Shown here piece after piece: positions 803 through 64,000 of a stretch of DNA of 64,000 nucleotides (positions are counted from its first letter, which is position 1; each line of letters opens with the position of its first letter). A model generated the notes under the pieces. That model was not told the DNA's origin. It saw only the letters and a list, made by a program, of their open reading frames with translations, and did no database searches. A program made the position numbers and the translations under genes. Origin of the DNA: Tetracentron sinense (taxonomy: Eukaryota; Streptophyta; Magnoliopsida; Trochodendrales; Trochodendraceae); assembly GCA_015143295.1 (NCBI GenBank), contig CM026570.1, positions 21,087,250-21,151,249 of the forward strand, read 5' to 3'.

Positions 803-1015
803 TGTAGCACCCCGGACTTTTTCATCCTTAATGAATAGCACCTTCGTAGCTAATTGGCCGTTTTTGTAGTCTAATTAATAAATAAGGGAGAAATCGGAAA
901 TTCCGAAATGTCAGAAATGTTCGTTTTCGAAAGACGGATCCAACGCAAGTTGAATCATCGAAATCCGACGAGCGAGTCAAAAGATATGGTCAAAACAGTC
1001 CAGACATACAGAGCA

Positions 1016-1198
1016 CCGATCGCTCGGTCCAGTCAGCGATCGATCGGTCCATAACCGATCGATCGGTGGCTATCGCACGGTCAGAAATTTTGTATGGGGA
1101 AATTTTCCAGAGAGTGAGTTTTTGACCGATCGATCGGTCAATAACACCGATCGCTCGGTAGGCAACCGATCGATCGGTCATAACCACCGATCGCTCGG
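1016..1198 (+). promoter_or_regulatory. Phased palindrome cluster in the U3 of LTR A
   Basis: Seven sites fit CCGAKCGMTCGG (one has a G first). Starts are 1016, 1036, 1055, then 1126, 1147, 1166, 1187, so neighbours lie 19-21 bp apart, about two helical turns. CCGATCGATCGG is a perfect palindrome; CCGATCGCTCGG is the near-palindromic form. The two groups are separated by a spacer containing GGCTATCG, GTATGGGG and CCAGAGAG. The same cassette recurs at 8560-8742, 12813-13051, 40387-40569, 50443-50620 and 52676-52857. Its place ahead of the leader suggests promoter or enhancer sites for a dimeric DNA-binding protein; that role is inferred. Confidence 0.8.
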
Positions 1199-2019
1199 TC
1201 TTCGCGTTTTTGCAGAAATTTCAGTAAGGGCGTTTTCATCTTTTGGGTGTTAAACCCTTACCCATAAGGGTTTGCTCGACCCTTTGAGCCCTCATTCACC
1301 TCACTTAGAAGGTTTTGAGAGAGAAGAAGAGAAGAGAAGGGGGATTTACATCTAGGGTTTTCCACTTGAGAGAATCAAGGGTTTTAGAACCCTAGAACCG
1401 TTCTAAAGGCTTGGATTCTCCAAATCCAACCTCAAGCTCGTGTGGAGTACCTCGTCCAAGCTAGGGCAGCATTTCTACATCATCCTCAAGGATTTTCTTT
1501 CCCTTTCCAAGGTTAGTACACTCTTCCTAGTTACTTTGGTAATAACCTAGGATTTTTTTTTAAGAAAATGTGTTGGATCTTCCCCATTGCTCCCTTGTGT
1601 TGGTATATGCTAAATCCCTAAAACATAAACAAGATAATACAAACAAATGGTGGAATGTATGAATGGATGAGGAGTGGAGGCGATTGGATGTCATGTTGTG
1701 ATGTGTTGAATGATGGGAAAAATGGTGGAAGGGCATATTATGCATAATGAACACACCCCAAGTGTTGATGAAATGTTCGAATGAGAAAATATGAAATAAC
1801 TAAAGGTAAAAAGGTTGAATACCACATGTTTGATAGAATGCATGAACAAACTAAGATTTGAAAGCATGAGTCACATAAATATTCCCCATTTGGTAAGTTG
1901 TATGCATGTGTTTATTTCGCTTCTTAAATTCTCATGTGAGTTGGGAATTGTTAAAATGCTATATGTCATCATAATTTCACGATTGCTATGCACGAGCACA
2001 TATGTAGATGGAGGATATT

Positions 2020-8346: not shown

Positions 8347-8559
8347 TGTAGCACCCCGGACTTTTTCATCCTTAATGAATAGCACCTTCGTAGCTAATTG
8401 GCCGTTTTTGTAGTCTAATTAATAAATAAGGGAGAAATCGGAAATTCCAAAACGTCAGAAATGTTCGTTTTCGAAAGACGGATCCAACGCAAGTTGAATC
8501 GTCGAAATCCGACGAGCGAGTCAAAAGATATGGTCAAAACAGTCCAGACATACAGAGCA

Positions 8560-8742
8560 CCGATCGCTCGGTCCAGTCAGCGATCGATCGGTCCATAACC
8601 AATCGATCGGTGGCTATCGCACGGTCAGAAATTTTGTATGGGGAAATTTTCCAAAGAGTGAGTTTTTGACCGATCAATCGGTCAATAACACCGATCGCTC
8701 GGTAGGCAACCGATCGATCGGTCATAACCACCGATCGCTCGG
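8560..8742 (+). promoter_or_regulatory. Phased palindrome cluster, 3' LTR of A
   Basis: Same seven-site layout and 19-21 bp spacing as 1016-1198. Two sites have one C/G-to-T/A change each, as expected from deamination of methylated CpG. Confidence 0.8.
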
Positions 8743-9502
8743 TCTTCGCGTTTTTGCAGAAATTTCAGTAAGGGCGTTTTCGTCTTTTGGGTGTTAAACC
8801 CTTACCCATAAGGGTTTGCTCGACCCTTTGAGCCCTCATTCACCTTACTTAGAAGGTTTTGAGAGAGAAGAAGAGAAGAGAAGGGGGATTTACATCTAGG
8901 GTTTTCCACTTGAGAGAATCAAGGGTGGAGTACCTCGTCCAAGCTAGGGCAGCGTTTCTACATCATCCTCAAGGATTTTCTTTCCCTTTCCAAGGTTAGT
9001 ACACTCTTCCTAGTTACTTTGGTAATAACCTAGGATTTTTTTTTAAGAAAATGTGTTGGATCTTCCCCATTGCTCCCTTGTGTTGGTATATGCTAAATCC
9101 CTAAAACATAAACAAGATAATACAAACAAATGGTGAAATGTATGAATGGATGAGGAGCGGAGGCGATTGGATGCCATGTTGTGATGTGTTGAATGATGGG
9201 AAAAATGGTGGAAGGGCATATTACGCATAATGAACACACCCCAAGTGTTGATGAAATGTTCGAATGAGAAAATATGAAATAACTAAAGGTAAAAAGGTTG
9301 AATACCACATGTTTGATAGAATGCATGAACAAACTAAGATTTGAAAGCATGAGTCACATAAATATTCCCCATTTGGTAAGTTGTATGCATGTGTTTATTT
9401 CGCTTCTTAAATTCTCATGTGAGTTGGGAATTGTTAAAATGCTATATGTCATCATAATTTCACGATTGCTATGCACGAGCACATATGTAGATGGAGGATA
9501 TT

Positions 9503-12812: not shown

Positions 12813-13051
12813 CACCGATTGCTAGGGATCGCTCGGTACAAAACTGATCGCTCGGTCAGAATTAGCCATCGATCGGTCCAAAACTGATTGATCGGTAGCT
12901 ATCAACTGGTTAACTTTTTTGTATGGAGAATTTTTCCAGAGAGGTTGTTTTTGACCGAGAGCTCGGTGAAGAACACCGCTCGCTCGGTCATAACCACCGG
13001 TCGATCGGTAGGCGACAGATCGCTCGGTCATAACCACCGATTGCTTGGTCT
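12813..13051 (+). promoter_or_regulatory. Palindrome cluster of LTR B
   Basis: Diverged CCGATCGATCGG-type sites on both sides of the common spacer (TAGCTATCAACTGG, GTATGGAG, CCAGAGAGG). Sites are less perfect than in A (GCTCGCTCGG, CCGGTCGATCGG, CCGATTGCTTGG) but spacing near 20 bp is kept. Confidence 0.7.
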
Positions 13052-13112
13052 TTCGTGTTTTTACAGAATTTCATTAAGGGCTTTAGGTCTTTTGGCTCTC
13101 AAGCCTTAGGAC

Positions 13113-14017: not shown

Positions 14018-14100
14018 GGCATGGTCCGTATCCGCCAAGAACGGCATGTCCATTTTATAATTTCTTAGGCATGGTCCGTATCCGCCAAGAACGGCATGTC
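14018..14100 (+). repeat. Tandem hairpin units in LTR B
   Basis: Two identical 33-bp units (14018-14050 and 14068-14100, period 50). Each has CATGGTCCGT and ACGGCATG around an 11-base loop, so CATG pairs with CATG and CCGT with ACGG. Surrounding sequence repeats CTCATAAGCATAAGC and CTCACAAG, like the tail of the units in A. Confidence 0.7.
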
Positions 14101-14372
14101 ACATCACTATATGATCTGAATAAGTGCATAAGCATAAGCATCTCACAAGCACGTGGTCTCATAAGCATAAGCATCTCATAAGTATATTTTCTTCTAAGTC
14201 GAAGGTTCTCACAAGTACACGAGTCAAGGTGATGATATGTTGTGTCTGAGCACATGTTCTTCCACACTCTGACTATGTTATTATGCTATTGGATATGATT
14301 CTAACTAAGTGCAGGTTTACTACGTTGTTGGTTGGATTTTATATACACCGAGTACTTTTGTACTCAGTCGGA

Positions 14373-14502
14373 CTTTGTCTTGGCAGGTTTAGAGCAAGAG
14401 CACACGGCGGAGCCGTGGATTGAGGAGGCATACGTTGAGGAAAGAGGTGAAGGTGAGCCTTCGAAGGAGGAAGCCAGGGATTTTGATAGTTACCCATACT
14501 AG
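14373..14502 (+). other. Acidic open frame in LTR B, counterpart of the A micro-ORF
   Basis: Open to TAG 14500-14502, with the same phase relative to GGCAGGT as in A and the core EPWIEEAYVEE, ending RDFDSYPY. The ATG used in A is GTC here, so no start codon is seen close by. A perfect hairpin GAGTAC-TTTT-GTACTC (14350-14365) sits just ahead. Confidence 0.45.
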
Positions 14503-14788
14503 TTATGTTTTGTTTGGTTTAAGAGTTTTGTAATAGACCTTTTTAGATGATGTTGCTCATTCGATTATTTTACAGTTGGATGTTAGACTATTGTTTATCG
14601 TAGGAGGTTATGTTAAGCATAGACTTGAGCAGGATGACTTGGTTTTATATAAATTGAAAGTTTATTATCCTCATTTTGGAGACTCGTGTAGGAAGCCTTG
14701 TATGCATGGGTTTTAAGCAGGTTAAGGGAATGTGACGATTCCAAAGTCCTATTTTAGCCTTGTAGGATTTTGGGGTCATTACAAATAG

Positions 14789-15291
14789 AGAGTTGGTGCA
14801 ACAGCTTCCCTTAGCTGGACCTCAATATTCTACTCCTAAACCAGGTCTAGAAGACTTTCTCTCTCAATTTATCACTCAACAAGAACATTCATTCCAATGC
14901 CTAGAGCAACGTCTAGGTCAATTAGAGGCTGAGAGAGAAAAAGGCAAGTTCCCTAGCCAACCTATTGCTAATCCCAAGGGAAATGCCAAGGAGGTAGTCT
15001 ATGAAGTCGGTTCACAACCTATGAACCAAAACTTTCAGGGTGAGGTCCAAGCTTTTACCACACTCTGCTCGGGTAGAACTGTGGACATGGGAGTGAAACC
15101 AAGCTCGGTGCCATCAAAAGCACCATCTACTAACTTAGAGGAACCCAGCTCCAAAGCTACTGCCTCTCCCTCTACACCTAAATCTACTATTTCTGTGCAG
15201 AAACCTCAGGCTATGGACAAGCCAATTTGTCAGTTGAAGCCACCTTTCCTAGAAAGGATTGTCTAGAATAAACGGGATCAATAATTCTCAG
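14789..15291 (+). pseudogene. Athila gag, C-terminal part
   Basis: Continues the gag split by LTR B. The open part 14793-15266 encodes a Gln/Glu-rich stretch (FLSQFITQQEHSFQCLEQRL, coiled-coil-like) and a Ser/Pro/Thr-rich linker, then the motif before protease (KPPFLERIV). Stops follow. Confidence 0.7.
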
Positions 15292-15439
15292 AGATCATGA
15301 AAGTCTTTAAAGACTTATAGATCAACATCCCGTTCCTTACTGCTATCAAGCAGATTCCACCCTATGCTAAGTTCCTCAAGGACTTATGCACTCTCAAGCG
15401 GCGTACTCATGTTCCTAAGGATGCCTTTTTGGTCGAGAA

Positions 15440-18400
15440 GCCACTGCGTTCATTCAACGCAATGACATTATAAAATTTAAGAATCCTGGAAGCCCTATCA
15501 TTCCATGCAGAATAGGGAATGATTTCACTTGCACCGCCTTGCTCGATTTAGGAGCTAGTGTGAAACTACTGCCTTACTCTGTTTATCAATAGCTAGGCTT
15601 AAAGGATATGAAGCCTACTAGGGTCACTCTGAAGCTCGCTAACTAATCAATTAAAATCCCTGGGGGAATCATTGAGGATGTCCTTGTAAAAGTGTCAGAC
15701 TTTTACTATCCAGTCAATTTCATCATTCTTGACACTGAACTTTGTCTAGATAATAGGATCCCAGTCATCTTGGGTAGACGATTCCTTACCAGTGCTGATG
15801 CACACATAGGGTGTAGGAATGAAAACATGTCAATCTCTTTCGGCAACCTCAAGGCAGAGGTAAACATCTTTCGCTTAATGCACCAACCTACCGATATCGA
15901 CATGGTTGAAGAATTATGTGCTGTTGAGAGTCTAACTCAGGACTCTCATGAAGACATACTCCATCAGTGTCTCAAACACTTTGGGGCTGATTTTCAATCT
16001 AAAATAGTCATTTCTGAAGTCAGTGATCTCTTAGAGTCTGCTCTATTGATATCTACTCCTACTCTACTTAATGAGTTTGAGCCCTTGATCACGTTGGAAA
16101 AAGAACTACCTTCCATCCTCTCTGTATCCATTGATGCCTCAGTGCCTAAGCTTGAAATGAAGCCTCTTCCTTCCGAGCTCACATATGCCTACCTTGGCCC
16201 GGAGAAAACGTATCCCATCATCATCGCATCCACTCTCTTAGAATTCCAAAGAGAGCAACTTTTAAAGCTCTTGAAAAAGCACAAGACCACCATTGGCTGG
16301 ACGATTGATGACATTTGTGGGATAAACCTCTCTATGTGCCAACACCATATCTATTTGGAAGATGATTCTAGGACTTCTAAGGAGCCTCAAATGAGGCTAA
16401 ATCCTATTCTGAATGAAGTTTTCCGGGATGAAATCCTTAAATTGCTGGATGTAGAAATCATCTATCTAATCTCGGACAGCAAATGGGTTAGTCCTATCCA
16501 TGTTGTGCCCAAGAAAGTAGGATTCAAAGTGGTGGAAAATGAGAAGAAAGAAATTATCACCCAACGACTAGAGAAAGGTTGGAGAGTCTGTATTGATTAC
16601 AAAAAACTCAACACTAACACTAGGAAAGACCATTTTCCGCTGCCCTTTATTGATCAGATGTTGGAAAAACTAGCTAGTCACTCCTACTATTTCTTAGATG
16701 GATACTCAGGGTACAATCAAATACCCATCGCCCTTGAGGACCATGAGAAAACAACTTTCACCTGTCCTTTCGGCACTTTTGCCCGTCGTCGCATGCCATT
16801 TGGCCTTTGCAATGCACCAACGACTTTTCAAAGGTGCATGATGAGCATTTTTAGTAACATGGTGGAGTGATTTCTTGAAGTCTTTATGGATGAATTCTCT
16901 GTCTTTGGATCATCTTTTGATGAGTGTCTCCATCATCTCAATCTAGTCTTAGAGCGGTGTCAAGACAAACACCTTGTCCTAAATTGGGAGAAATGCCACT
17001 TCATGGTGAGAAAGGCATAGTTTTGGGCCATGTGATATCCAATCAAGGGATGGAGGTTGATAAGGCAAAGATCGATGTTATCTCTACTCTACCACTCCCT
17101 AAGTCTGTTCGTGACATTTGATCTTTCCTAGGACATGCTAGTTTTTATCAGAGATTTATCAAGGATTTTTCTCAAATCACTCATCCCCTGTGTAGTCTCT
17201 TGGCTAAGGATAGCCCTTTTGACTTCAACACCGAGTGTATGACTGCATTTGAACACCTCAAATTTGAGCTCACCTCTGCTCCTATCATTCGTCCTCCGGA
17301 TTGGACCCTTCCGTTCGAAGTGATGTACGATGCCTCTAATTATGCCTTAGGTGCAGTTCTAGGGCAGAGAGTCAACAAGCTACCACATGTCATATACTAT
17401 GCCAACAAAACCTTAAATTCAGCACAACAAAATTATTCCACCACAGAGAAAGAGTTCTTGGCTGTGGTGTTTACCTTGGATAAATTTAGATCTTATTTAC
17501 TTGACATTAAGGTCATAGTCTACTCAGATCATGCAGCGCTGCGCTATCTTCTTTCCAAGAAGGATACCAAACCCAGACTGACTCGTTGGATTCTTTTATT
17601 ACAAGAGTTTGATCTAGAAATTTGGGACAAGAAAGGAACTGAGAATGTGGTCACTGACCATTTATCTCGACTGACTGTAGAGTTCATTTCTAAACCTCTA
17701 CCCATCCATGAGACATTTCCTGATGAACAACTGTTCACGGTCTCAGAATCTCCATGGTATGCTAACATTGTCAACTACCTCATGAATGAAGCCATTCCTT
17801 CCTACTGGTTCAAACAAGATAAACATCAATCCTTGGCCAAGGTGAAGAATTACTCGTGGGATGACCCTTATCTTTTTAAGTATTGTCCAGACTAGCTCCT
17901 TCGTCTGTGTGTCCCCGAGTCTGAGCAATTGAATATTCTCTCCTCCTGTCATGATCAACCCTGTGGTGGTCATTTCAGCACTAAAAAGACTGTAGAGAAA
18001 GTTCTATATTGTGGATTCTACTGGCCATCTCTCTTTCGAGATGCGCATATCTACTCCAAGGCTTGTTCGAATTGTCAACATCTAGGCAGAATTTCTCAGA
18101 GAAACATGATGCCCCTCACACCTATTCAGGTTGATGAGATTTTTGATATTTGGGGCATCGACTTTATGGGACCATTTCCTCTCTCACATGGTTTCCAGTA
18201 TATTCTCCTTGCGGTTGATTATGTCTCTAAATGGATAGAGGCAATTCCCACAAAAACCAATGACCATAGAGTTGTGGTCAGATTTCTTAAAGAGAACATC
18301 TTCGCTTGATTTAGAGCCCCCAAAGCTATTATCAGTGATGGGGGGAAACATTTCTGCAGTAAAATCTTTGAGCAACTTCTGGAAAAGTACGAGGTCACCC

Positions 18401-37024: not shown

Positions 37025-37558
37025 TGTAGAACCCTGGATCTTGAGGGCTTGGTGTATGATGTTTGATGACATGTATTAAAGCCTTAATAATATTTTCTTA
37101 AGTTTATATGTGTTATGATGAAGGAGTAAGAGTATAAAATACTCTTAAGGGTCAACAAAGGTTATGCCTTAGCATTACCCTCAACTTGAGAAGCTTTAGT
37201 TTTGTCACCGCACATCGGAATCAAGTGATTTATGAATTTTTGGAAAGGTATTGAAACCCTCTTCAAGGTTCATTTTTATCAATTTTTCAGATTTTGAGTC
37301 AGGGTTAGGTTAAAAGTTGGATTTCCGGAGTCGGTTACGATAAAAATCTGGGCTACTGAAATCCATTTCCAGACTAGTCGGCTTTAGAACCCTTTTAGGT
37401 AATTGAAAACTCAGAATTTATATTTGTCCATTAGAAACAAAATTATTTCCCTTTGAATGACAAGTCCAACGCAAGTTAAATCATCAAAATCCGATAGGCG
37501 AGTAAAAAGTTATGGCCGAGATAGCAAAGCGAGAAAATCTGGAAAGTTTCTGTTAGAG

Positions 37559-37706
37559 TTATGATAGTTCGTAAACAACCTACAAAAGTTCATAGAAGGC
37601 CTATGAACGATCGTACAAAGTCTACAAATGATCGTAGAGTCCCAAAAACTGGGCAAACTCTCTAGAAAGTCTATGATCGATCGTATAAAACCTACGAACG
37701 ATCATA
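37559..37706 (+). promoter_or_regulatory. Phased palindrome cluster of LTR G (second sequence type)
   Basis: Sites of the form CTACGAACGATCGTA start near 37559, 37580, 37601 and 37622, then 37671 and 37692: spacing is 21 bp in both groups. The spacer retains CTCTCTAGAAAG. The site sequence differs from CCGATCGATCGG but shares the CGATCG centre, and the layout is the same. Confidence 0.7.
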
Positions 37707-37760
37707 GTCGTGCGACCCAATTTTTTGGTGCGGGATTTTTAGGTTTCTACCCTCTTGGCC

Positions 37761-38890: not shown

Positions 38891-39651
38891 CATGACAAGG
38901 CAAGTCAAGACAAGCATGATTCCAAACAAAAACAAGACAAGACATGTATGATTCTCACAAGACAAGAACAATAAAATAATGGGTTTTAACACGACAAGCA
39001 ATTTTTGAAAACCACGAAAAGCTATGTTCAAGATCAAGTCATGAATTTTAAGTATGGGTTTTATCGGAGTTTTCGCATTTGTTTCATGCATGTCACGAAC
39101 ATTGTATTGCTTTAAGTATGATGTTATGAATTGTATTTAGTTATTACTGTTGTATTTCGTTATTACTATTGTTAGCTAGTAGCTTGTACTCGTTGAGTAT
39201 TCCATACTCAGCCGCACATTTCATGTCAGCAAGTCCGGTTGATACCTTCAACCCTGAGCCTTGGGTTGAGGAAGAGTAAGTCGAGGAGGAGGCACCTATT
39301 CCACTACAGCCTCAGGAGGATAGAGACCTAGATAGGTGGCCCTATCTAAAATATTGTGAGTAGTGTGATATGGAGAGGGAGAGAGACTGATCTATTTTGT
39401 ATTTTGATGGTGGGCATGTCCACCTTTACTTGATGCATTTTGTATATAAGCTTGGAATACAGGTTATAGAAAAAGGAAAAAAATTGGTCATGCTTCTGCA
39501 CTGCTATAAGCTTTCGCACTCTGTTTTGTATCGCTATTGTATTATGTTTTGCCTTGTTCACTGTACAGGATGGTTCGCCAAGTTATGTATAGTCAAACCT
39601 AAAGTTCCACCTAACTCCTAAGGGGGATTTTGAGGTGCGAAAAGTGCAATC

Positions 39652-40867
39652 TGAAATTACCCTGATCAATGATCTCTATGACCTAGAGGAGGGGTGAATA
39701 GGTCTATCTAAGAACTTCTAACCAAATTTTAGTTTTTCAAATAATTAGTTTAGAAATCAATAAACAATTCACACCAACAATCCACACAAGTCAAACACAG
39801 CAGATTTTTTACGTGGAAAACCCTTACGGGAAAAAACCACGGGACCGCGTCCAGCAACAAACTTCACTATAAGAAGAATCCAAGTACAAGACAAGACCTT
39901 ACCCAAACTGGACTCGACGTTCCTAGATACAGAATCTTACTCTTGATTTCCACGAACCAGCAAGTTCGATCTCCGCCGTAGCAGCTTCGGTTCCTGACCG
40001 ACCAAATCTTCTCAAGCTACTTCAATACCACGATAACACACGATCAATCTCCTTCCACGAAGGCTCCGGATCATACACCGGACACACACACAAAGTGTAG
40101 GGTTGTGAATCAATTTAGAAAGCTTCAAACCCTAGAGGAATCTCATACAGATCTGAGATCATACAATGCAAGATCAAAAGTATAGATCTATACTTACATT
40201 CTCTAGGATGATTGAAAAAGGAGGGATCACTAAAGATCTATGAGGAATAATGGAAAAAGCCCTAGAAGGGTTTCTCAGACCTCTACTCTTTCAAAAATAA
40301 ACAAAGATACGAATTAGGTCTCCAAAAAGTTGTTTATATAGGGTTTAGAAAAGAGTCCAGAAAAATAAAAATTATGTTTACGAGGACCGATCGATCGGTG
40401 CTTATAACCGATCGCTCGGTCCAAAACCGATCGATCGCTATTTCCACCGAGAGATCGGTTAAAAATTACCTCTCTGCAAAAATACCCCATACAAATTTTT
40501 TGACCAGTCGATAGCCACCGATCGCTCAGTAGGCCACCGATCGATCGGTCTCAACACCGAGCGATCGGTTGAGACAGAATTTTAGCCAAAACAATTTTCT
40601 TTTATTTTTGTTTGATTCAAATAAGACCAATAGACTTTGTTAGGCTAAAAACTATCCTCCTAGGTATGTTTAGAGTTATCTAAGTCAAATCGAACCTAGG
40701 TAGGGGTCTCTAAGTCCATTAACTGTTTAGATCCGGAGTAGAAGCTTTTTCTTCAATATCTTCTATCTTCTCGAAACTTTAACTCTTCCGACAAGTTGAA
40801 CAAGACACAACACACATGACCTATCTAATGATCACGGAATTTGCCAACACTTATTTAGGGATTTACA
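39652..40867 (-). repeat. 3' LTR of F
   Basis: 1216 bp; on the minus strand TGTAAATCCC...GGTAATTTCA. Contains the palindrome cassette (40387-40569) and a TATA box (TATATAAA on the minus strand, 40333-40340). Confidence 0.93.
40387..40569 (-). promoter_or_regulatory. Palindrome cassette in the Ty1 LTR (3' copy)
   Basis: Four plus three CCGATCGATCGG-type sites around the same spacer as in Ty3 LTRs A, B and H, in the same orientation relative to the element. The minus-strand TATA box at 40333-40340 lies about 47 bp downstream. Confidence 0.8.
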
Positions 40868-41490: not shown

Positions 41491-42834
41491 TCACTCCTCT
41501 TCATCAGAAGTGAGATGGGACTCATAATATTCTCTAAAATCACGAACATCCCGCTGGACACTCAGCACTGCTGCATCAAGTGATCCAAGTCGACCTCGGA
41601 TCTCTGTAGTGAATTCCTGGTAAGATGAAACATGAGTCTGGAGATCCATCTGCATCTCCCGCATCATTCTGGCAAGATCATCAATCGAGGCAGGAGGTGG
41701 ATGAGAGGACCCGGTACCAACTTCTGCTTCCTCCTCAGTATCTCGAACTGAAGCATGTGAGAAACTCTGAGCTATGGTCTTTTTGTTGATTGGACCCTTC
41801 GGATTACGAGTAGGAACACCAGGAGGAGCAATGACCCCTTGAGAACTAAGGAGTTTAGTGATCAGGGAACCAAATGGAAGAGCTCCAACTACAATTTGAG
41901 TTTGATGGGCTTGAATCATTAAATCAATAATGTGTGCGGCAAGATCAATATCATGTCCACGAAGGAGACTAAACAAAAATCATGCTCTATCTTCCCTAAG
42001 GTCCATAGTATGAACCTTTGGGTGGATATTGGCATTCATTACTAGGTTTACAAGTCTTGCATCCCTAGTGAGTTTAGACACTTCAATGAAGGAACCAACC
42101 CAAAGTGTAGGAGCACCACAAAGAAAGGTGACTACATTGTTCATGAATTCTTTATCCTCATCATTCTTATATTTATAAGGATAATAAGCATCAGAAACTT
42201 GAGGACAACCAAGAAATTTAGCAATGACATTAGGATTTATCAAAACAGATTTTTCTAAAGCTCGAGATTTAAAAGACCAGGTTTTAGAGTTGATTTCAGA
42301 AAAATTTGAGTAAAATTCCTGGACTAATTGAATAGGAGCAGGACCGGATAAAGTGAGAATACCTTCCCATTGACGATCGGTAATGAGCTTAGGAAGGTGA
42401 TAATCACCAAAATCGGAAATTCTAATACCCCTTTCAACCATAACAGCCTTCTTGCTAAAATACTCACTATAAAGCCGAGCAACAGTAGGGCTAATGAAGG
42501 GACCCAATAGAACATTCGAGGACGAACGAGCTTTTCCTTTCGGTTTCTGGGTTTTATCTGCCAAAGACTTTCGGCAATTTTCAGAAGTAGAATCAACCAT
42601 TCTATGGATTGGTCTATCCCCTATTGAAATCCCATGACCTATTAGAGTGAAAGAGTAAGGCTCATTGAGATCCTCTTCCTTGAGAGGGTTCTCTTGGTTG
42701 TTGAGGACCAATCTCCAGCGTTTAGAGACACCGGACATGAGGAATGCAAGAATAACTAAGGAGAAGGAGAAAACCATCACGAATTTTTGATGCCCTAGAT
42801 GTGAAAAGTAATCCAAAATCAAGAAAAGCAACAA
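41491..42834 (-). pseudogene. Third ORF of F (env position), plant-transposon-protein-like
   Basis: One frame from ATG 42834 to stop 41491, interrupted only by TGA 41980-41982 (probably a changed Trp codon). The first 35 residues are hydrophobic, but a later Met (MSGVSKRW) may be the true start. The middle (VERGIRISDFGDYHLP, LVQEFYSNFSEINSKTW, VIAKFLGCPQVSDAYYPY) follows the pattern of the family named putative plant transposon protein (PF20167-like; from memory). The C-terminus, after a Ser/Pro linker, is heptad-like (LARMMREMQMDLQTHVSSYQ) and suggests a coiled coil. No glycoprotein features beyond the N-terminal hydrophobic stretch. Role unknown. Confidence 0.6.
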
Positions 42835-42981
42835 AGTTTACCTTTTTAGATGCTTGGAAACCCTTGGAGTAGAAAGAAATGACCGTAAGAGGGATTTGAA
42901 TCGAGAGATCGCTCTGGAGCTCGGAGAACAAAAGAATAGTAAAATGAGAAATGAGGGTTTCATAACCCTGTTCACGAAAGA

Positions 42982-43014
42982 CCGATCGATCGGTCAATAA
43001 CACCGAGCGATCGG
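42982..43014 (-). promoter_or_regulatory. Two phased palindromes upstream of the third ORF of F
   Basis: CCGATCGATCGG at 42982-42993 and CCGAGCGATCGG at 43003-43014, 21 bp apart, as in the LTR cassettes. On the minus strand they lie about 150 bp before the ORF start and are followed by ATGAAACCCTC and a pyrimidine-rich stretch like an LTR leader. They may mark an internal promoter. Confidence 0.6.
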
Positions 43015-43079
43015 TGGTCTGGAAAATTTTTTGAAAATTTTGACTTAAAACCATTTTTCTCCCCCTCAACCAAAGCAAG

Positions 43080-47645: not shown

Positions 47646-48647
47646 TTTGGGATCAGAATGTATTGGTTCAAATTACCAACAACTAAAGGACCAGCTGGTG
47701 TGTCAGCATGTCCTATCCTAGATCTATTAGAATTTGATCCATATTTTCTAACTAATTCATCTAGGCAGCTAGTATTTCCAAACATTCTTACTTCTTTCTC
47801 AAGAGTATAGACCTTCTGAATCAAGTCAGTCTTGTCTTTAAGGGTTATATGATGTTCTTTTTCAAGAAATTTCACCTTATCAACAAGAGAATCTTTTAAA
47901 GATTCCAGCTCCACTAACAGAGTCTTTGACTCTTCAACTTCTTTCAAGGAAGTGTCTCTTTCAACTTCTAATCTTCTGACCACATTAGTCAATGAGACAT
48001 TCTCTTCCAAAAGACACTTAACTTTTTCAACAAAAGCTTCTTTCTCTTTTTCAAGCTGACTAACTAGAGCACTCTTCTCCTTTGCTTCTAGTTTACAAGT
48101 ATCTCTTTCATTTTGAATGATTTTGAGTTTTTTGCTCAAAGAGATTTTTGCTTTAGTCAGTTTCAAACTTTCAGAATACAACTTATGATAAGTTGTTTTC
48201 AAATCTTCATCACTTTCAGAGTCAGTATAACTCTTCTCAGTGTCTCCACTAGACTCAGTGTGACTACTTTCATCACTTTTATCCTTCTCATCAACCACCG
48301 AGGCAATCTCAAGAATCCCAGAAAGGGATACAGTGAAAGCAGTATTGTCGCGACCCAAAACCCACCCTAGGAGTTAGAGTGAATCGTGGACGACTAAATC
48401 ATGACTCACATGACTTGCTTGACAAACCACCTGCAAAACACCCACAGAGCATATACAATAGAGGATAACAACGGAAGCATAACTATAAGACACAACGGAA
48501 GTCTAACAAACCTCTAAGTATATACACATGGTCCAAGTTTTAATACAAAGAAATCAAAACAAAGAAAGTGCGGACATGCCCGCCAAAATACATGGATATA
48601 ATCACTCATGCTCACCCACAGCTAATCCACTTAGAATCTAACACCAC

Positions 48648-48767
48648 CTACTGATAACCCTCTACGGGAGGTTCCTCCAATGGCTCCTCGATGTACTCCT
48701 CCTCCACCCATGAACCAGGAGTACAAACATCAAATGGAGCAGTAGCTCCCTCAGAACCTGCCGACAT
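48648..48767 (-). CDS. Conserved small acidic ORF in LTR H (39 aa)
   Basis: ATG 48767 to TAG 48650-48648. Begins MSAG, as does the ATG-2771 start in A, and has the core SWVEEEYIEEPLEEPP. The hairpin GCTGAGTATTCCATGCTTAGC lies just ahead of it, in two parts GCTGAG and CTTAGC that pair with one G-U. An independent LTR lineage keeping start codon, frame and core supports a real peptide. Confidence 0.5.
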   Translation of the reverse strand: MSAGSEGATAPFDVCTPGSWVEEEYIEEPLEEPPVEGYQ

Positions 48768-49086
48768 AAGAAGTACGGCTAAGCATGGAATACTCAGCGG
48801 GTACTAAATACTAACCAACAGTTATAGCAAGAGATAGCAATGCATACCCAGGAAACAATATAGATATATATGAATCAGGAACAGTTAATATCATACAAAG
48901 AAATAAGGAAATTCATAATCATACTTGCAGTTCATGAAAAGCCAATAAAATTTTTGAAAAACACCATGCACTTGACTTGACTTAAAATACCCTTCGCGTA
49001 ATTGGAAACTTATTTACCGTGTCATGCTTGTCATGCTTGTCATGCTTGTATTATGCTTGCTTATTCGGAATTTAAACATGTTCACA

Positions 49087-49400
49087 TGCCTAGTTGCCGT
49101 TCATAGCCCATCGCAACTAGTATCCTATATGATGAATGATATGCCTAGTTGCCGTTCATAGTACGTCGCAACTAGTACCTTATATGCGGAATGACATGCC
49201 TAGTTGCCGTTCATAGCCCGTCGCAACTAGCATCCATGCAGAATGTGTATGACTAGTTGCCGTTCATAGCCCGTCGCAACTAGCATCCATGCAGAATGAT
49301 ATGCCTAGTTGCCATTCATAGTCCGTCGCAACCAGTACCCTATATGCAGATGGGTATGCCTAGTTGCCGTTCATAGTCCGTCGCAACTAGCATCCATGCG
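49087..49400 (-). repeat. Six-unit hairpin array in LTR H
   Basis: Units start at 49090, 49145, 49200, 49253, 49305 and 49360 (period 52-55). Each carries CTAGTTGC and GCAACTAG around a 15-base loop, an 8-bp stem. The one deviant (unit 5, GCAACCAG) becomes a G-U pair when read in the sense (minus) RNA. ATGC-rich simple sequence follows to about 49510. Confidence 0.85.
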
Positions 49401-50442
49401 TGTCGTGTCATGCCATGAGTGTCATGAAATGCTATGCTATGCATGTCATGCGATGCTATGTCATGCATGTAATGCGATGCCATGCCATGCGTGTAATACG
49501 ATGGGATGGGAGACCCTTCCCTATGCAATGCATAATCATCTTGTCCTTGACAAAAGTGAAGTGAAACATATCGTAGGATATGCCCCACCTCTACATCTCG
49601 TCCTTGAAAACATCTGTAAATCACGTCGTTTCATGCCGTGCTCGTGTAATCGTGTACACACTTGCAATGGAAATTAAATATGACATTTTGGGGAATTCAC
49701 AATACATTGCACATCACCATATATACAAGTAATAAATTAAACAATTTAGGGGAAGCGCGAAAACACACTACCATAACCTTAGCAATTTCCATGAATGTTT
49801 AAGCATGCAATTTCTTTATTTATTATTCATTTCATTCATCTTGGCATTTCATCAAACATGGTGTGTTCATTATTGATTTACCCTACAACATGCTTTTCTA
49901 GATGGGTTTTACTCAAATCATGCATGTATGTTCATTATTGGAACAATGCCCTCCCCATTTTAATCATCACAACACAACCATTGGCATCCAATCGCCCATT
50001 CCATCTCCATTCACCATTCACAACCATCCATCTCATAGCACATGTGTAAATAAAGGAAAATAAAGAGAAATAAAGGGAAAAGAGGAACTATAACTAGGAG
50101 GGTAGCAAGAAGTACCGACCTTGATCAAGTGAGGAAGAAATCCCCTTCCAAAAACGACCGTGAGTTGCTGCCCTAGCTTGAGGAGATGCTCCTCACGAGC
50201 TTGTGCCTTGATCTTGAAGAAAAATGGGCTTGAGTTGAGTGTGGGTTCACAAACCCCTTGATTTCTCTCCAAAATAGAAACCCTAGGTTTAGGAATCGCC
50301 CTCTCCTCTCTTCTTATCTCCCAATCTCTCTAAGTGTCGAAATGAAGTCCTAAAGGCTCGGGTTAAACTCTTAAGGTATGAGTGAACCGATCAAAAGACC
50401 ATAATACCCTTACTGAAATTTCTGCAAAAACGCGAGTAACAA

Positions 50443-50620
50443 GCGATCGGTGTTAATGACGGATCGATTGGTTGCCTACCGATCGATCGGTTTCATAACC
50501 GAGCGATCGGTTAAAATTTCACTCTCTGGAAAATTTTCCCATACAAAAATCTTGACCAGTCGATAGCCTCCGAGCGATCGGTTTTGGACCGATCGATCGC
50601 TCCATGGACCGAGCGATCGG
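50443..50620 (-). promoter_or_regulatory. Phased palindrome cluster of LTR H
   Basis: Sites at 50479, 50499, 50570, 50589 and 50609, plus weaker ones near 50440 and 50459, spaced 19-20 bp within groups. The spacer on the minus strand has GGCTATCGACTGGTC, GTATGGG and CCAGAGAG. Confidence 0.78.
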
Positions 50621-51931
50621 TGGTCTGCAGGTCCAAACTGTTTTGGCCATAACTTTTGACTCGTTCGTCCGATTTTGACGATTCAACTTGTGTTGGGTTC
50701 GTACTTCGAAAACGAACATTTCTGACATTTCGGAATTTCCAATTTCTTCTTTATTTATTAATTATACCTCTTTAAAAGAAAAATGGCAACGAAAGTGTCA
50801 TGCATTAAATGTGAAAAAGTCCGGGGCTCTACAAGTATGATTATCAGTTTCTTCACTTGAAGAAGAACTGTCCGATTCTTCATTCTCGGAATCACTGTCA
50901 TCCCAACAGGCATTCATCACTTGCCCTTGCTCTTCTTCTTGTTAGGACAGTTAGGTGAAATATGACCGAAGCTATGACATTCATAACATTGAACACCTTG
51001 GGATTTCTTGTCGCCACTCTTGGAATTTTTCTTGATTTCCCAGGGCTTAGACTTTGACTTCTCAAAAGATTTTCCTCCCTGTTTAGGATTGAACCTCTTT
51101 TTCGTTCTAGAAAATTTTCAAAATTTTTTAACGAAGAGAGCCATTTCTTCCTCATCCATCTATCCATCATTGTTATCCTCATCCAAAGATTCCTTAATTG
51201 ATTTCAAGGCTAAAGATTTGGTCTTCTTGGATGGTCGAAGATTGAGTTCATAAGTTTGGAGTGAACCAACTAATTCTTCAATCTTCAGAGAGTCAACAAT
51301 TTTACTCTCTTCAATAGCACTGACCTTGGGTTGAAATCTCTCAGGTAGAGATCTAAGGACTTTTCTAACTATCTTAGACTCAGTTAATCTTTCACCTAAG
51401 TTGAAACTAGCATTAACAATGTTACTAAGTTTTGCAAAAAATTCATCAAATGTGTCATCGTCTTCCATTTTCAAATATTCAAATTTGGTGGTTAACATTT
51501 GGAGTTTTGAGATTTTAACAGTGGTGGTACCCTCATGGGTAATCTCAAGAATGTCCCATGCCTCCTTTGCTGTTTCACATGAAGAAATTCGTCTGAATTC
51601 CTCAGCTGTGACTGCAGTAAAGATAGCATTGAGTCCTTTAGTATTCCAACCACTTGTCTCAAGCTCTTCTCTGGTCCATTCATTAGAATAATTGACGACA
51701 GTTAAATCACCTAGAGTTTTCATAGGCGTAGTCCAACCATTTTGAATAGACATCCAAATTCTCTCGTCAATTGATTTGAGAAAGGCTCTCATACGGGCTT
51801 TCCAATATGCGTAATTATTCCCATCGAACAGTAGGGGACGAGAGACTGAACCGCCCTCTCTTAGAGTACTCATAATCACAGAGTAAGATATACAGGATCA
51901 CACTAAAGGGTTTAGTCTTAAAGGTGAACCT

Positions 51932-51945: not shown

Positions 51946-53155
51946 TGAAATTACCCTGATCAATGATCTCTATGACCTAGAGGGGGGTGAATAGGTCTAT
52001 CTAAGAACTTCTAACCAATTTTTAGTTTTTCAAATAATTAGTTTAGAAATATAAACAATTCACACCAACAATCCACACAAATCAAACACAGCAGATTTTT
52101 TACGTGGAAAACCCTTACGGGGAAAAACCACGGGACCGCGTCCAGCAACAAACTTCACTATAAAAAGAATCCAAGTACAAGACAAGACCTTACCCAAACC
52201 GGACTTGACGTTCCTAGGTACAGAATCTTACTCTTGATTTCCACGAACCAGCAGGTTCGATCTCCGCCGTAGCAGCTTCGGTTCCTGACCGACCAAATCT
52301 TCTCAAGCTACTTCAATACCACGATCACACACGATCGATCTCCTTCCACGAAGGCTCCGGATCATACACCAGACACACACAAAGTGTAGGGTTGTGAATC
52401 AATTTAGAAAGCTTCAAACCCTAGAGGGATCTCATACAGATCTGAGATCACACAATGCAAGATCAAAAGTATAGATCTATACTTGCATTCTCTAGGATGA
52501 TTGAAAAAGGAGGGATCACTAAAGATCTATGAGGAATAATGGAAAAAGCCCTAGAAGGGTTTCTCAGACCTCTACTCTTTCAAAAATAAACAATGATATG
52601 AATTAGGTCTCCAAAAAGTTTTTTATATAGGGTTTAGAAAAGAGTCCAGAAAAATAAAAATTATGTTTACGAGGACCGATCGATCGGTGCTTATAACCGA
52701 TCGCTCGGTCCAAAACCGATCGATCGTTATTTCCACCGAGAGATTGGTTAAAAATTACCTCTCTGCAAAAATACCCCATACAAATTTTTTGACCAGTCGA
52801 TAGCCACCGATTGCTCGGTAGGCCACCGATCGATCGGTCTCAACACCGAGCGATCAGTTGAGACAGAATTTTAGCCAAAACAATTTCTTTTATTTTTGTT
52901 TGATTCAAATAAGACCAAAAGACTTTGTTAGGCTTAAAACTATCCTCCTAGGTATGTTTAGAGTTATCTAAGTCAAATCGAACCTAGGTAGGGGTCTCTA
53001 AGTCCATTACCTGTCTAGATTCGGAGTAGAAGCTTTTTCTTCAATATCTTCAATCTTCTCGAAACTTTAACTCTTCCGACAAGTTGAACAAGACACAACA
53101 CATATGACCTATCTAATGATCACGGAATTTGCCAACACCTATTTAGGGATTTACA
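51946..53155 (-). repeat. 5' LTR of F
   Basis: 1210 bp, colinear with 39652-40867. TATA box on the minus strand at 52622-52629. Confidence 0.93.
52676..52857 (-). promoter_or_regulatory. Palindrome cassette in the Ty1 LTR (5' copy)
   Basis: Sites start at 52676, 52697, 52716, 52736, then 52807, 52826, 52846: spacing 19-21 bp. The spacer on the minus strand has GGTGGCTATCGACTGGTC, GTATGGGG and GCAGAGAGG, clearly homologous to the spacers in the Ty3 LTRs. Confidence 0.8.
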
Positions 53156-53834
53156 CAATCGTTGGTTATTCAGTATGAATAATATATCGTAGTACTCTAT
53201 TCACATATATGGTATTGAGTTATTTTAAGTTATCTCAAGATTTTATGCAAGTTGAATGTGCTCACAAGTTAAGTAAGATAAGATGCTCATAAGTAAGATG
53301 ATATGTTCACATGTTTCGCACTCTGATGAGTGTAAGTTTGTTAAGTTATGTTAAGAGAAGTATGATAAGCATGATTTATGTTAATGTTTATGACCTTGTT
53401 AGCTAATATTTTATGTCTACTGAGCCACATGTGCTCAACCGATATGTTTTTTGTCGACAGGTTTAGATTTTGAGATTGTAGCTAAACCTTGGGAAGATGA
53501 GGAATATACTGAGGAAAAAGAAGGTGATTTCATGGAAGATGAGAATGATTTGGATAAATATCCATATTATTGAAGTTTAAATTATTGGACTTTGGTTTAA
53601 ATTGAAGGGTTGTAATAAGTTCTTTTAATGGAGGTTTTACGGTTATGTTTGATATCACTTTATATGTAGTTATTGATTTTGAGATTGATGTTAATTCAAG
53701 AATTCTCAAGTTTATATTTTAGTATGCCTTATAAGCTCATGTTAAGATAAAAAGTCTCGATAAGAGATTCTAGGATAATGTAGTGTCATGAGTCAAAGTA
53801 CATTTTGACCTAGATGGGATTTTGGGTCACGACA
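53156..53834 (+). repeat. Truncated Ty3 LTR (I), right part
   Basis: Continuation of 36331-37024 after G and F. Has the hairpin TGAGC...GCTCA (53421-53437), TGTCGACAGGT, an acidic open frame to TGA 53571-53573 (core KPWEDEEYTEEKEG, ending DKYPYY; no ATG) and the LTR end TTTGGGTCACGACA. Confidence 0.7.
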
Positions 53835-54880: not shown

Positions 54881-56011
54881 ATCCTTCCATATACTTGTGA
54901 CCTTCCTCTTGTGAATATTTCCTTCTTGTCTTATAAGCTTCCATTTGTTCCTTACGCGTTTTCTTTCCTTTCCTTAAGAATGTTCTTATGATCTTTACTT
55001 ATAATTTGATTTTCTCCTTGTCTTATGAACTTTCTTATAATTCTTCGTATACCTGTACTTATGAACTGGACGTACATACTAGCGTCTATCTTTCTTACCG
55101 TACTTAAAATCTTATCCTTGTCTTGTAGAAATTTACTCTTGTCTTGTTCTTATTTCATGGAAATCACTCTTGTCGTGTCTTGGTTTAATTCCATATGATT
55201 ATATTTCAAAAAAACTAGGTTCCTACATGAATACGTGCTTGTGCATAGAGAATGGTGAACATCATAATGTCATGAGAAGATTGAAATACCATCATGTCGC
55301 ATTTCCCAACTTTCTATAAACATACGAGATTTTAAGGAAACACAAAAAGCATACTAGCATAATTACCAAATTTTGGGAAAATCCCTAATTCATATTTCGT
55401 CAAGCACCTTGCATTCAACCTTTCCTTAAGGCTTTTACTTACATTTTCATCATCCACATTTCATCAAACATCTTATATGCATTTCTTATGAGTACATTAC
55501 CCTTTCCCATTTTCCATCATACATCAACCATTACATTCATAACATTTAATTTATTATAAACCTATTAAACTACACATCTTAATATTGTCTCAATATGATT
55601 TACATCTTGATTTTCACCAAAGGATCACTAAAATTGAATGTATATCAAAGCATTGTAACAAGGGAGGTTAATAGAATGTATCTACCTTAGGGAATAAAAT
55701 CTCTTTGATCCAAGGCTTGAGAAAGCTTGAGGGAGCTTGTAGAAGAGGAACCCAAGCTTGAGGATGAAGATCCAAGCTCCAATGGCGTGTGGTAGCGTGA
55801 TCCAAGCTTGTGGAAAATCCCAAACCTTGATTAGTCTTCACTTGATCTTCAATCCAAAACTCCTCCTTGAAAATCCTCAATCTTCTCCCTTCTCCTTCCA
55901 AGATCTTCCTTAGGTTTAGGTTCACCAAAAACCCCCCAAAAAGATCACCTATTTGTAGGCCAAGGAGTGAAAACCCCAAAAATTACGCTCTAAAAAAGTT
56001 GGTTCGTGCAC

Positions 56012-56134
56012 CTACAATCATTCGTAGGCTTCCTACGATAAATCGTAGGTTGCCCAGTGAGTTTACAGTATTTCAGGGGCTTTACAATCGTTCGTAGCTA
56101 CGATCGTTCGTAAGGTGTTTACGAACGATCGTAA
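56012..56134 (-). promoter_or_regulatory. Palindrome cluster of LTR H' (second sequence type)
   Basis: CTACGATCGTTCGTAG-type sites start at 56012, 56033, 56082, 56098 and 56119; mostly 21 bp apart within groups. Same type as LTR G. Confidence 0.7.
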
Positions 56135-56932
56135 CTTTTGCAGAAACTTTCCAAATTTTTCCCACTTTGGTATTTCGGCCATAACTTTTGACTTGCTTAT
56201 CCGATTTTGACGATTTAGACTTCTCATTCAAAGGGGAACAATTTTGTGTCTAATAGAAAAATCCTAATTCTGAGTTTTTAATTACCTAAATGGGCTCTAA
56301 AGATGACTGGTCTGGAAATAGATTTCAGTAACCCATTTTTCAACAAACCTGGTTTTGGAAATCCAACTTTTAACTCAACCCCGACTCAAAATATGAGAAA
56401 ATGGTAAACATGAACCTCGAAGAGGGTTCCAATACCTTTCCAAAAATTCAAGAATCACTTGATTCCAAGTAACGGTGACTAAAATAGAGCTTTATAAATT
56501 TGAGAGTATGTTAAGACATTTCCTTTTTAACACTTAGAACATTTCGAGTGCTTTCACACTCTTTTCCCTCGGGTCCAAAAACCCTATTCACACCTCATGA
56601 CTCGTTACCCCATAGGTTTGTAACCCACCTAGGTGACCATTGAATTCACACCAATATGCATGAGAGGCCCCGGCCTCTTTATGCTTCGTGCACTAGCACT
56701 ATTCACCGCACTATTCACTTACAACCCATTAAATACTTAGGGTATTTTATACCCTTGCATTTACCCACATAGATTATACTTATACTCTCTTTTTGAGACT
56801 CAAAAACTCACCTAAAACCCTCACTTGACTCACCCCACTACCAAGAACAAAATGGGAGACCTTAGGCCTTTACACTATTCACTGACACTATTCATGGCAT
56901 GGTGAACTCGGGTTCCGAGGTTCTATACAGGA

Positions 56933-61394: not shown

Positions 61395-62032
61395 CTCAAA
61401 CACACACACGCGCCCAGGCCACTAGGCCATTGCACCCAAAACCCCTGTCCTTGTCATTTTTCTTTTGGTAGTAAGTTATCACTTCAAAGGTCTCATTATT
61501 AGGAAACCAAACAGCCAATTCATCTAATAATCCAACATGAAGGTTCCCACAAACAAAGCAACCTCCACATGCATATAGCACTCCATATCTTTAGCTACTT
61601 TTTTTCAACACCACCACATGTGCCTTCAAATGGTCTCTCCTCCCATGTGAGATATCAGCTTCAACCCCACCAAACACATATCCATAAACATAAAATAATA
61701 GAAAGACCAACAAACTAAATGTCCTCTCTGCCAGGTTAAATCGGCTCCATTCTTGAAGTATTTTCAACTCCAAGTAGGTATAAAATCTTGCTGGCAAAGA
61801 AACAATCCTTATTTCTAATTCTACACAGCCTGCAAAATCATTCAAACAGATGAAAACTAATAATGAATCTGTGTATCCACCCACCAGATATAATTCAAAG
61901 CAAGAGAAATAAATAAACCTTTAATGATAACAGTAGCATGTGATCCAAATGATCTGGTGACCTGGAAAAAAACTAAAGTATCATACAAATCTATCTTCTT
62001 TTACTTTTTGATTCAACATCTCCACCATTATC
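61395..62032 (-). other. Region downstream of the TMK-like gene
   Basis: CA-rich start, then mixed sequence. Minus-strand frames of 61 and 97 codons (61396-61581, 61591-61884) have no recognisable domain and are not called. Confidence 0.35.
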
Positions 62033-62268
62033 AAACCAATCTTCTATACAGGAAAGAATCCAATAAAGAAACAGACAGCTCTCTTGTTTCAGGATTGAAC
62101 ATAATAAAGTTGGGAAGAACAGATGCAAAGGCCAGATAAATGTCGAAACCAAACCAATCTTCTATACAGGAAAGAATCCAATAAAGAAACAGACAGCTCT
62201 CTTGTTTCAGGATTGAACATAATAAAGTTGGGAAGAACAGATGCAAAGGCCAGATAAATGTCGAAAAG
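62033..62268. repeat. Perfect 118-bp tandem duplication
   Basis: The 118 bp beginning AAACCAATCTTCTATACAGG occurs twice with no visible difference, just downstream of the TMK-like stop codon; it probably lies in or near the 3' UTR. Confidence 0.93.
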
Positions 62269-62389: not shown

Positions 62390-64000
62390 TCAGCGGCAAT
62401 CCAATGAATCAAATGTGTTGGGAAACCCAGAAGGCTTCGCGGGTATGCTTGATTGGGTGCGGCTATTGTAGAGATCATCTACCATTGTCGAAGTACCTTC
62501 ATCAGCCTGCCATCTCTGCATGATTTGAGGGAGGCTCATGTGGTCAGTGCTAAAGCTATCTTCTTCTCGATGGCAAGAAGGTTTCCACTGCTCTACAAGA
62601 GGACCCAAGATGTTAACAGCATGCCCCATATCTGGCCTCTGAGATGGCTCGCGAGCTGTGCAATGACCTGCTAGCTCTGCCACCTTGCAGATGTTTCCAT
62701 AGGTCTCATCATCGGGGTTCAGGGTGGAGTCAATAGCTTTTCCAATGTTGTCTTTGTTGATGAGGACCCTTCTGAACCATGTGACCAAATGAGATCTATC
62801 CTCTGGCATGGTCTCGTCTAATGCTTTTCTACCCGTGATCAGCTCCATCAAGACTACGCCAAATGCATAAACATCAACTTTTGTCGTCACCCTTCCTGTA
62901 GCTGTTATGAAACAGGCATCGTGAGTTCAACATGTATAAAATTATATATACCTATGGAACTAAGAGTTACAACAACTTTAAACTTGGAAGGAAAAAAGCA
63001 ATTTGCAACCCACAATTACACAAAACTATACCAAGGTTAAATGCTTTTAGCATGGATTTACCATAGAAGAACACAAGTTCGTGTGCGTGTCTTGAGTGAC
63101 TGATATCAAATTCAAAAAGAAAGAAGCAAAGTAAAACTATAGATTTGATCGAACAAAATATTAGAATAGGTTGAAGAAAGGTTTTGTCTACATGATTCCA
63201 AGTCTGATTAATGGAAAACAAACATTAAGAGAGAAATCATTATCATCAAGACCTTATCCCAACCATTTGGGGTACGGCAACATCCACAATGCGAATTCAA
63301 TTCTGGCATTCAATTGGCTGCTATCAAATATTTTCTCATTATCTCCATTCACATCATTGTTGGCATTTTCTCGGTCTTTTAGATCTTTAACTTTCAACAA
63401 CTCACTCCTCGTTAGCGGGGTCGTTTGTCTTAGTTGAATGTTTCCAAACAATCTTAGTCGACTCTTTCATTTTATCACCTATAGGAGCTACTTCCATACT
63501 CTCTCGAATGCAACCATTTTTGATATTATATATCATTCGCAAGCTACTCCATTATACTCGACCCCTATGGCTACGTCCAACATTCCAAACTAGATATAAT
63601 TGTCAAACACAAAACATGCTACAATAGTGTTCTGAAAATTTAAAAGGAAAAAGAAAATAGAAACGGGAAAAGGTTGGCACATATTGAGAGAAGGAAAATG
63701 TATTGAAAATCCTCAGCACTTGAGGTAGGAGTATTAACAAAATATTGTTATATGGTGAAAATGTAAAGTAATCCTATCTAGGATTGTTCTGAGGTTTGTT
63801 TCCAAGCATCAGATTATGGCATGAATAGTTGAAATACGTATATTTTAAGCAGACATCAGAATGATTCCAGCAAATTTACTTACAAGAAGAAAATCAAAGG
63901 CTGTACTTACCAGCATACTCAGGTGCAAGATATCCAAATGTTCCTGCCAGCCGTGTCTCCAGGGAGTACTTCCCATCAGGTGCATTTTTGACCAAACCGA
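62390..64000 (-). CDS. TMK: TMK-like receptor kinase, last two exons, partial
   Basis: Coding parts on the minus strand are 64000-63911 (partial at the window edge) and 62901-62390, separated by a GT-AG intron (63910-62902, 1009 bp; GTAAGTAC donor, ACAG acceptor). The first exon encodes the kinase activation loop ([20 protein letters not shown], then APEYA); across the junction the frame reads [20 protein letters not shown]. The last exon gives kinase subdomains IX-XI ([20 protein letters not shown]) and the conserved TMK tail ([19 protein letters not shown], ending SLDCR). TMK proteins are plasma-membrane LRR receptor kinases linked to auxin signalling. The frame is intact; the extracellular part lies outside the window. 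Confidence 0.93.
63197..63560. repeat. Dispersed repeat in the TMK-like intron
   Basis: Contains ATCAAGACCTTATCCCAACC then ATTTGGGGTACGG, and further TCTTAGTCGACTCTTTCATT, both resembling a repeat scattered in many plant genomes (possibly non-LTR derived). Recognition is from memory; limits approximate. Confidence 0.4.

Follow-up and report, generated by a model that had tools for sequence, protein, structure and literature searches.

A palindromic promoter module shared by Sirevirus-like copia and Ty3 chromovirus LTRs in Tetracentron sinense

Both LTRs of a copia retrotransposon, element F, carry an array of palindromic boxes around a conserved spacer, and the same arrangement recurs in Ty3 LTRs within the same 64,000-nucleotide stretch of Tetracentron sinense DNA (the window). 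This is probably one homologous upstream promoter module that was exchanged between Sirevirus-like and chromovirus LTRs, once for a first type of box (type I) and perhaps again for a second (type II). The relevant features of F are as follows.

51946..53155, minus strand: 5' LTR of F, TSD GATTG at 53156-53160 and 39647-39651
52675..52858, minus strand: module of the 5' LTR, seven boxes with starts spaced 20, 19, 71, 20, 19 and 21 bp
52749..52805, minus strand: 57-nt spacer of this module; the core starting TTTGTATGG begins at 52784
52624..52629, minus strand: TATA box of the 5' LTR (TATATA, LTR position 527)
39652..40867, minus strand: 3' LTR of F, TSD GATTG
40386..40569, minus strand: module of the 3' LTR, its spacer identical to that of the 5' LTR (57/57)
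42900..43015, minus strand: second box group, upstream of the 3' ORF; two of its boxes are perfect and lie 21 bp apart, a third has 3 mismatches
41494..42837, minus strand: 3' ORF (Pfam Transposase_32), open in two pieces, where Sireviruses have the envelope-like gene

The module of F is 184 bp long in both LTRs and consists of seven 14-bp palindromic boxes close to ACCGATCGATCGGT, three ahead of the 57-nt spacer and four behind it. A model of the box matched 63 times in the whole window, compared with 3–11 times in 10 dinucleotide shuffles. The modules of F and of the Ty3 LTRs A, B and H were rich in CpG, with observed/expected ratios of 1.41–1.86, compared with 0.46–0.69 in three LTR parts measured outside the modules.

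Element F was assigned to copia, and the Ty3 element A to the chromoviruses, by protein domains. F encodes a copia-type gag and an RVT_2 reverse transcriptase (PF14223 and PF07727), and most of the Sirevirus marks that we tested are present, making F Sirevirus-like. The terminal PPT, AGGGGGAG, is followed by AT and then by the TG of the 3' LTR (AGGGGGAGATTG at 40877, minus strand), and a C-rich integrase signal, TTCACCCCCCTCTAGG, lies close to the LTR end, both as in Sireviruses. The junction of the 5' LTR and the PBS reads CA-ATTGA-TATCAGAGC, one letter different from the Sirevirus CA-ATTGG-TATCAGAGC, which we counted as agreement. The palindromic boxes lie in the LTR upstream of TATA and again before the 3' ORF. 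We use the name Sirevirus-like only, because F lacks the Sirevirus cluster of extra PPT octamers near the 3' LTR and because its boxes have the core CCG-CGG rather than the CGG-CCG of the Sirevirus RM. Further PPT octamers were found singly, one in the linker before the ORF (43066) and one in pol (45084). Searched as protein, the first piece of the 3' ORF had no match at E 1e-3. The boxes at 42900-43015 are a candidate internal promoter of the type proposed for Sireviruses; the first of them, with the preceding CAGACC, is identical to H across 20 letters.

Box arrays of this kind are known in Sireviruses. According to the accessible text of Bousios et al. 2010 (PMC2829016), 13 of 21 Sireviruses have many copies of a palindromic RM box in the LTR upstream of TATA, and nine Sireviruses with an envelope gene have RM boxes upstream of that gene as well, an arrangement that F shares along with the CpG richness. 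There the RM is called Sirevirus-specific, in a comparison among Ty1/copia elements, and most RMs have a CGG-CCG core, unlike the CCG-CGG of the type I box described here. The array of F is thus an expected trait, but its twin in Ty3 LTRs is not. The arrays in Ty3 LTRs of the window are the following.

1015..1199, plus strand: module in the 5' LTR of Ty3 chromovirus A (LTR 803-3211)
8559..8743, plus strand: module in the 3' LTR of A (LTR 8347-10694)
12814..13049, plus strand: longer module in solo Ty3 LTR B (12312-14783, TSD AATAG), its boxes more numerous and more degenerate
50438..50621, minus strand: module in solo Ty3 LTR H (48346-50833, TSD ATACT), nested in F
37555..37710, plus strand: array of other boxes, TACGANCGNTCGTA, in 21-bp steps with one 49-bp gap, in Ty3 LTR E; for comparison, not a copy of the module

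Element A is a full element (TSD GTTAG) that encodes RVT_1 (PF00078), a Ty3-type gag (PF03732) and an integrase with a chromodomain (PF00385; 26.1 bits at a cut-off of 25.1), whereas the solo LTRs were grouped with A solely from the likeness of their LTR sequence (78% over 677 columns for H and 71% over 430 for B). A 59-bp stretch of the 5' LTR of A (1383-1441) is missing from its 3' LTR. LTR B is nested within a Ty3 element at 10700-18300, in which RVT_1 was found and whose protein pieces, judged by eye, appear Athila- or Tat-like. The TACGANCGNTCGTA palindromes form arrays with steps of about 21 bp and one 49-bp gap in related Ty3 LTRs, at 37555-37710 (plus strand) and at about 55990-56140 (minus strand). 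Elsewhere in the window, a 118-bp tandem duplication with 99–100% identity (62032-62267) lies near a kinase-like ORF (62393-62926).

When the window was compared with itself by BLASTN, the 3' LTR of F matched A at 77.4% over 190 columns (E 6e-35), H at 75.1% over 189 columns (E 5e-30) and B at 72.3% over 191 columns (E 1e-18). The spacer of F agreed with that of H at 47 of 57 positions, with A at 45 and with B at 44, and none of 20,000 dinucleotide shuffles per pair reached these values. The boxes of F begin at exactly the intervals found in H (20, 19, 71, 20, 19, 21); those of A differ in one step (20, 19, 71, 21, 19, 21), and B has the same 71-bp gap. The palindromes and the roughly 60-bp spacer that had been proposed as common to F and to A, B and H were thus confirmed, and the spacer likeness survived the shuffled controls. 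The orientation is the same in F, A and H, as had been claimed, with B carrying its longer version.

Other parts of the original prediction fared unevenly. The module itself is present in all of these LTRs, but some of the words listed for it vary by family (H has GTATGGGA; A and H have CAGAGAGT). Its placement relative to the promoter was claimed to be the same throughout; this was shown for F and B only, in which TATA lies about 45 and about 63 bp downstream of the last box, respectively. In A and H, the surroundings of the module yielded no TATA[AT]A. The predicted differences were borne out: the TATGG[CT]C box is present in A, B, H and E and absent from F, and the downstream hairpin arrays of the Ty3 LTRs have no match in F. 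These arrays are family-specific, hairpin-like tandem repeats (2016-2557 in A, with steps of about 68 bp; 49084-49399 in H, with 55-bp and longer steps). Outside the module, the LTRs of F and Ty3 appear unrelated, the 150-bp flanks giving raw local scores of 15–21 between F and Ty3, compared with 44–188 among the Ty3 LTRs. The possibility that the module is a nested insertion in one F copy was rejected, since both LTRs of F and F-like copies elsewhere have it. Published Sirevirus arrays, saturated linkers and a second type of box in both superfamilies had not entered into that prediction.

The likeness between F and A or H is distributed unevenly over the module: 83–89 of 98 positions agree in the boxes and 45–47 of 57 in the spacer, but only 6–9 of 29 in the linkers between boxes. 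For F and H, the linkers agree at 6 of 29 positions, against a shuffle mean of 6.9, whereas A and H agree at 20 of 29; the difference between spacer (47/57) and linkers (6/29) in F and H is significant (Fisher P 4e-8). The linkers between F and these Ty3 LTRs have therefore reached saturation, in contrast to the conserved boxes, spacer and lengths, so that boxes, spacer and spacing look selected, and we infer selection on protein contacts and on helical phase. We considered dating the transfer to the split of A and H, as the F–H and A–H spacers are equally alike, but this was dropped because of the saturation. In one Ty3 subtype (L019, L021, L026 and L047), the first linker contains TTGAG, and F has GTTGAG; this subtype may be nearer to the source of the F module. 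LTR H was rejected as the direct donor to this F: it sits within F, flanked by a TSD of its own, and the two modules differ by 25%.

The saturated linkers also imply that the shared ancestry of the module is not recent, as would be expected if Ty1 and Ty3 elements had both inherited it vertically from their common ancestor. We regard such ancient inheritance as very improbable. The remainder of the F and Ty3 LTRs is unrelated, and on the sense strand the core had no significant match in the other copia LTR of the window (11 of 300 shuffles reached the best score) or in E and Ep among the Ty3 LTRs (283 and 91 of 300, respectively).

The core is abundant in the 1.16-Gb genome to which the window belongs. 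With up to one mismatch, TTTGTATGGNNNANTTTTNCAGAGAG gave 15,832 matches (7862 + 7970), and the 15-mer GGCTATCGACTGGTC gave 1521 + 1448, with 0 matches for the reversed control in either case. An exact core match was not found in a 60-kb stretch beside the window. Together with the spacer shuffles, these controls led us to reject chance likeness. Convergence, in which the same host factors independently selected the boxes and the core in both superfamilies, appears quite improbable: boxes alone would not give such an excess of core matches over the reversed pattern, and the 57-nt spacer aligns in register at 77–82% identity, with F and H also spacing their boxes identically. It does draw some support from the recurrence of Sirevirus box arrays with many different sequences, as described in the accessible part of PMC2829016, and from the arrays of other boxes in E-type Ty3 LTRs.

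We then examined what flanks the module. Among 57 sites sampled from the 15-mer matches on contig C1 (37 + 20), some of which are both LTRs of one element, 13 had F-like flanks (6 + 7) and 44 had Ty3-like flanks (31 + 13). Three 10-kb stretches around F-like LTRs jointly contained copia gag, integrase, RT and 3' ORF at 62–95% identity to F. In total, 77 of 77 sampled sites were flanked by LTR sequence, 18 copia-like and 59 Ty3-like. These sites are a small sample, from contig C1 only, of several thousand places, so that a rare source copy could escape it. Searches of IMG/VR gave 0 matches, also with pol proteins, a single candidate having been rejected as it came without the rest of the module and looked like unrelated coding sequence; GTDB genomes likewise gave 0 matches.

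These data bear on whether copia and Ty3 LTRs independently captured the module elsewhere, the third source being, for instance, a host promoter or a transposon of a different class. In maize, the Copia palindrome is also the commonest motif in annotated Helitrons, according to the portion of PMC10760457 available to us, so a third class can bear motifs of this kind. Nothing in our data points to one, all of the sampled sites being in LTRs, and we consider independent capture unlikely. The original prediction had left transfer and capture from a common source side by side; the homologous module in two superfamilies is supported, but the two alternatives are not fully separable. For the exchange that we prefer, the route would be template switching by reverse transcriptase between co-packaged RNAs, or conversion between nested LTRs, and the module may have spread where copia and Ty3 elements were co-expressed or nested.

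Breakpoints at the array were also seen within Ty3. In two Ty3 LTRs (L031 and L033), the sequence upstream is 91–93% like A, and beyond the array the likeness is to a different type, L022, at about 77%. The array thus marks a breakpoint in these mosaic LTRs too, which suggests that the box array may act as a recombination bridge. At three further places (L053 from 2070 on, in reverse strand orientation, L057 and L064), a Ty3 LTR apparently lies inside a module, with its ends abutting boxes as judged by eye; box arrays might be preferred insertion targets.

In a tree of 42 modules (37 from the genome and 5 from the window), the 8 copia rows stood apart on a branch with support of 100/100. The attachment of this branch to the Ty3 rows was weakly supported (68/88), and the tree is unrooted for direction.

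The modules contain two types of box, and both were found in both superfamilies. Type I is ACCGATCGATCGGT; type II comprises ACCGGTCGACCG and its variants. They were compared at 20 further places from the core list, 15 of them picked for unusual core letters, which biases the proportions of box types: type I was found in 3 copia (L081, L084 and L095) and 12 Ty3 LTRs, and type II in 2 copia (L079 and L080) and 3 Ty3 LTRs (L082, L083 and L088). Some Ty3 boxes are hybrids, half type I and half type II (L083). The L080 LTR aligns with the F LTR from close to its start through to its end, apart from the boxes, with 72–74% identity in the longer pieces, and the L082 element encodes a Ty3 gag with 45% identity to A over 298 columns. 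Relative to the core, box centres lie at -78, -57, -38, -17 and +43 in L080, at -57, -37, -18 and +43 in L082, and at -77, -57, -38, -18 and +43, with one more, in L083 and L088; positions -57, -37/-38, -17/-18 and +43 are therefore common to copia L080 and the three Ty3 LTRs. The arrangement in L079 differs (-37, -17, +58 and +78).

Likeness between groups was then compared in the 33 columns outside the searched core letters, and in the 25 columns outside the 15-mer, among rows with an exact TTTGTATGG (11 of the 42 rows, 1 copia and 10 Ty3, were omitted as lacking it). Over all rows, likeness in 33 columns was 20.9 for copia I and Ty3 I, a value inflated by the choice of rows with the 15-mer, which makes 8 of the 33 columns alike by construction; it was 11.4 for copia I and copia II, and 16.2 for Ty3 I and Ty3 II. 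With the 20 core-chosen rows, the values in 33 columns were 18.7 for copia I and Ty3 I, 16.2 for copia I and Ty3 II, 16.3 for Ty3 I and Ty3 II, 14.5 for copia II and Ty3 II, and 13.0 for copia I and copia II. In 25 columns, the same rows gave 12.9, 14.2, 14.7, 13.0 and 10.5, respectively. A strict dependence of likeness on box type was weakened by this recount (18.7 against 16.2, and 12.9 against 14.2). Copia modules of type I nevertheless resemble Ty3 modules, whether of type I or of type II, more than they resemble copia modules of type II, which supports exchange.

The type II modules hint at a second exchange, resting mainly on one LTR, L080, which agrees with Ty3 II in 17.7 of 33 columns (reached by 1 of 5000 shuffles), compared with 12.3 for copia I. 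Outside the core, copia L079 did not clearly resemble Ty3 II (11.3 of 33; 737 of 5000 shuffles). Two further Sirevirus-like LTRs, S2 (L071) and S3 (L072), have 3' parts in common with F and boxes of the sequence GGGTCGACC. They came from a search of the fetched loci for TTTGTATGG, in which two of four non-module matches were Ty3 coding sequence. Between their boxes, S2 has a core-like word of 16.1 bits (0 of 300 shuffles) and S3 one of 10.6 bits (7 of 300), and neither LTR showed clear likeness to Ty3 II outside the core.

We lean slightly towards a transfer from Sirevirus to Ty3, since Sireviruses have published box arrays and since several of the Sirevirus-like LTR families of this genome contain core-like words. 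The E and Ep arrays, which are without the core, indicate that box arrays, taken by themselves, may be ancient in Ty3 as well. Tentatively, and with rather less confidence than a single exchange would merit, Ty1 Sireviruses and Ty3 chromoviruses may draw on a shared pool of modules with a conserved core and interchangeable palindromes (ACCGATCGATCGGT and ACCGGTCGACCG at least) that crossed more than once, so that, by trading the switch, they would answer to the same host regulators.

As to function, the arrangement suggests protein-binding sites. The boxes, placed about 20 bp or two helical turns apart on both sides of the spacer and presumably upstream of the transcription start, could be read on one face of the DNA by a dimeric host DNA-binding protein. 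A second factor would bind the spacer core, and the two would jointly activate the LTR promoter; in F, they might also drive the 3' ORF. Since the boxes are palindromic and are predicted to fold strongly as RNA (z -3.5 to -8.3), a role in RNA is possible, with the palindromes acting as hairpins or as small-RNA sources for silencing rather than as protein-binding sites. This would agree with the maize Sireviruses, in which palindrome clusters in the LTR cis-region are hotspots of small RNAs (Bousios et al. 2016, as cited in the accessible parts of PMC5311732 and PMC10760457). However, changes in the box arms were one-sided in 19 cases and two-sided in none among 32 boxes, linker lengths are kept though the linker sequence is saturated, and the conserved spacer core is not palindromic, all of which makes the RNA reading improbable. 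The two box types differ by a symmetric pair of changes, which is compatible with reading as protein site or as RNA.

An exchanged module of the kind that we propose has partial precedents. The grape Sirevirus RM, CGGTCGACCG, is the centre of the type II box described here, but the RM report, as far as its text was available, describes neither a conserved spacer core between boxes nor a Ty3 copy (PMC2829016). The maize palindromes form similar clusters, and the same palindrome occurs in Copia and Helitron annotations (PMC10760457), but the available sections mention no module common to Ty1 and Ty3 in which core and spacing are conserved (PMC5311732, PMC10760457). Mosaic LTR elements arising by recombination or template switching have been described in plants; in the portions available, these studies deal with complex insertions, related elements or members of one family rather than with a promoter module common to Ty1 and Ty3 (PMC1950507, PMC5668417, PMC4079200). 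Within this partial coverage of the literature, we found no report of a homologous module with a conserved core common to Ty1 and Ty3. Palindromic LTR arrays of Sireviruses were already known, and the homologous module in Ty3 chromoviruses, with its conserved core, appears to be new within that coverage.

If the exchange is real, control and coding regions of LTR elements would evolve separately even across the deepest division of the LTR retrotransposons, which would explain how unrelated families could be active at the same time. The long-noted palindromes of Sireviruses would gain a testable role, and the thousands of natural promoter variants in this genome could serve to identify the host factor.
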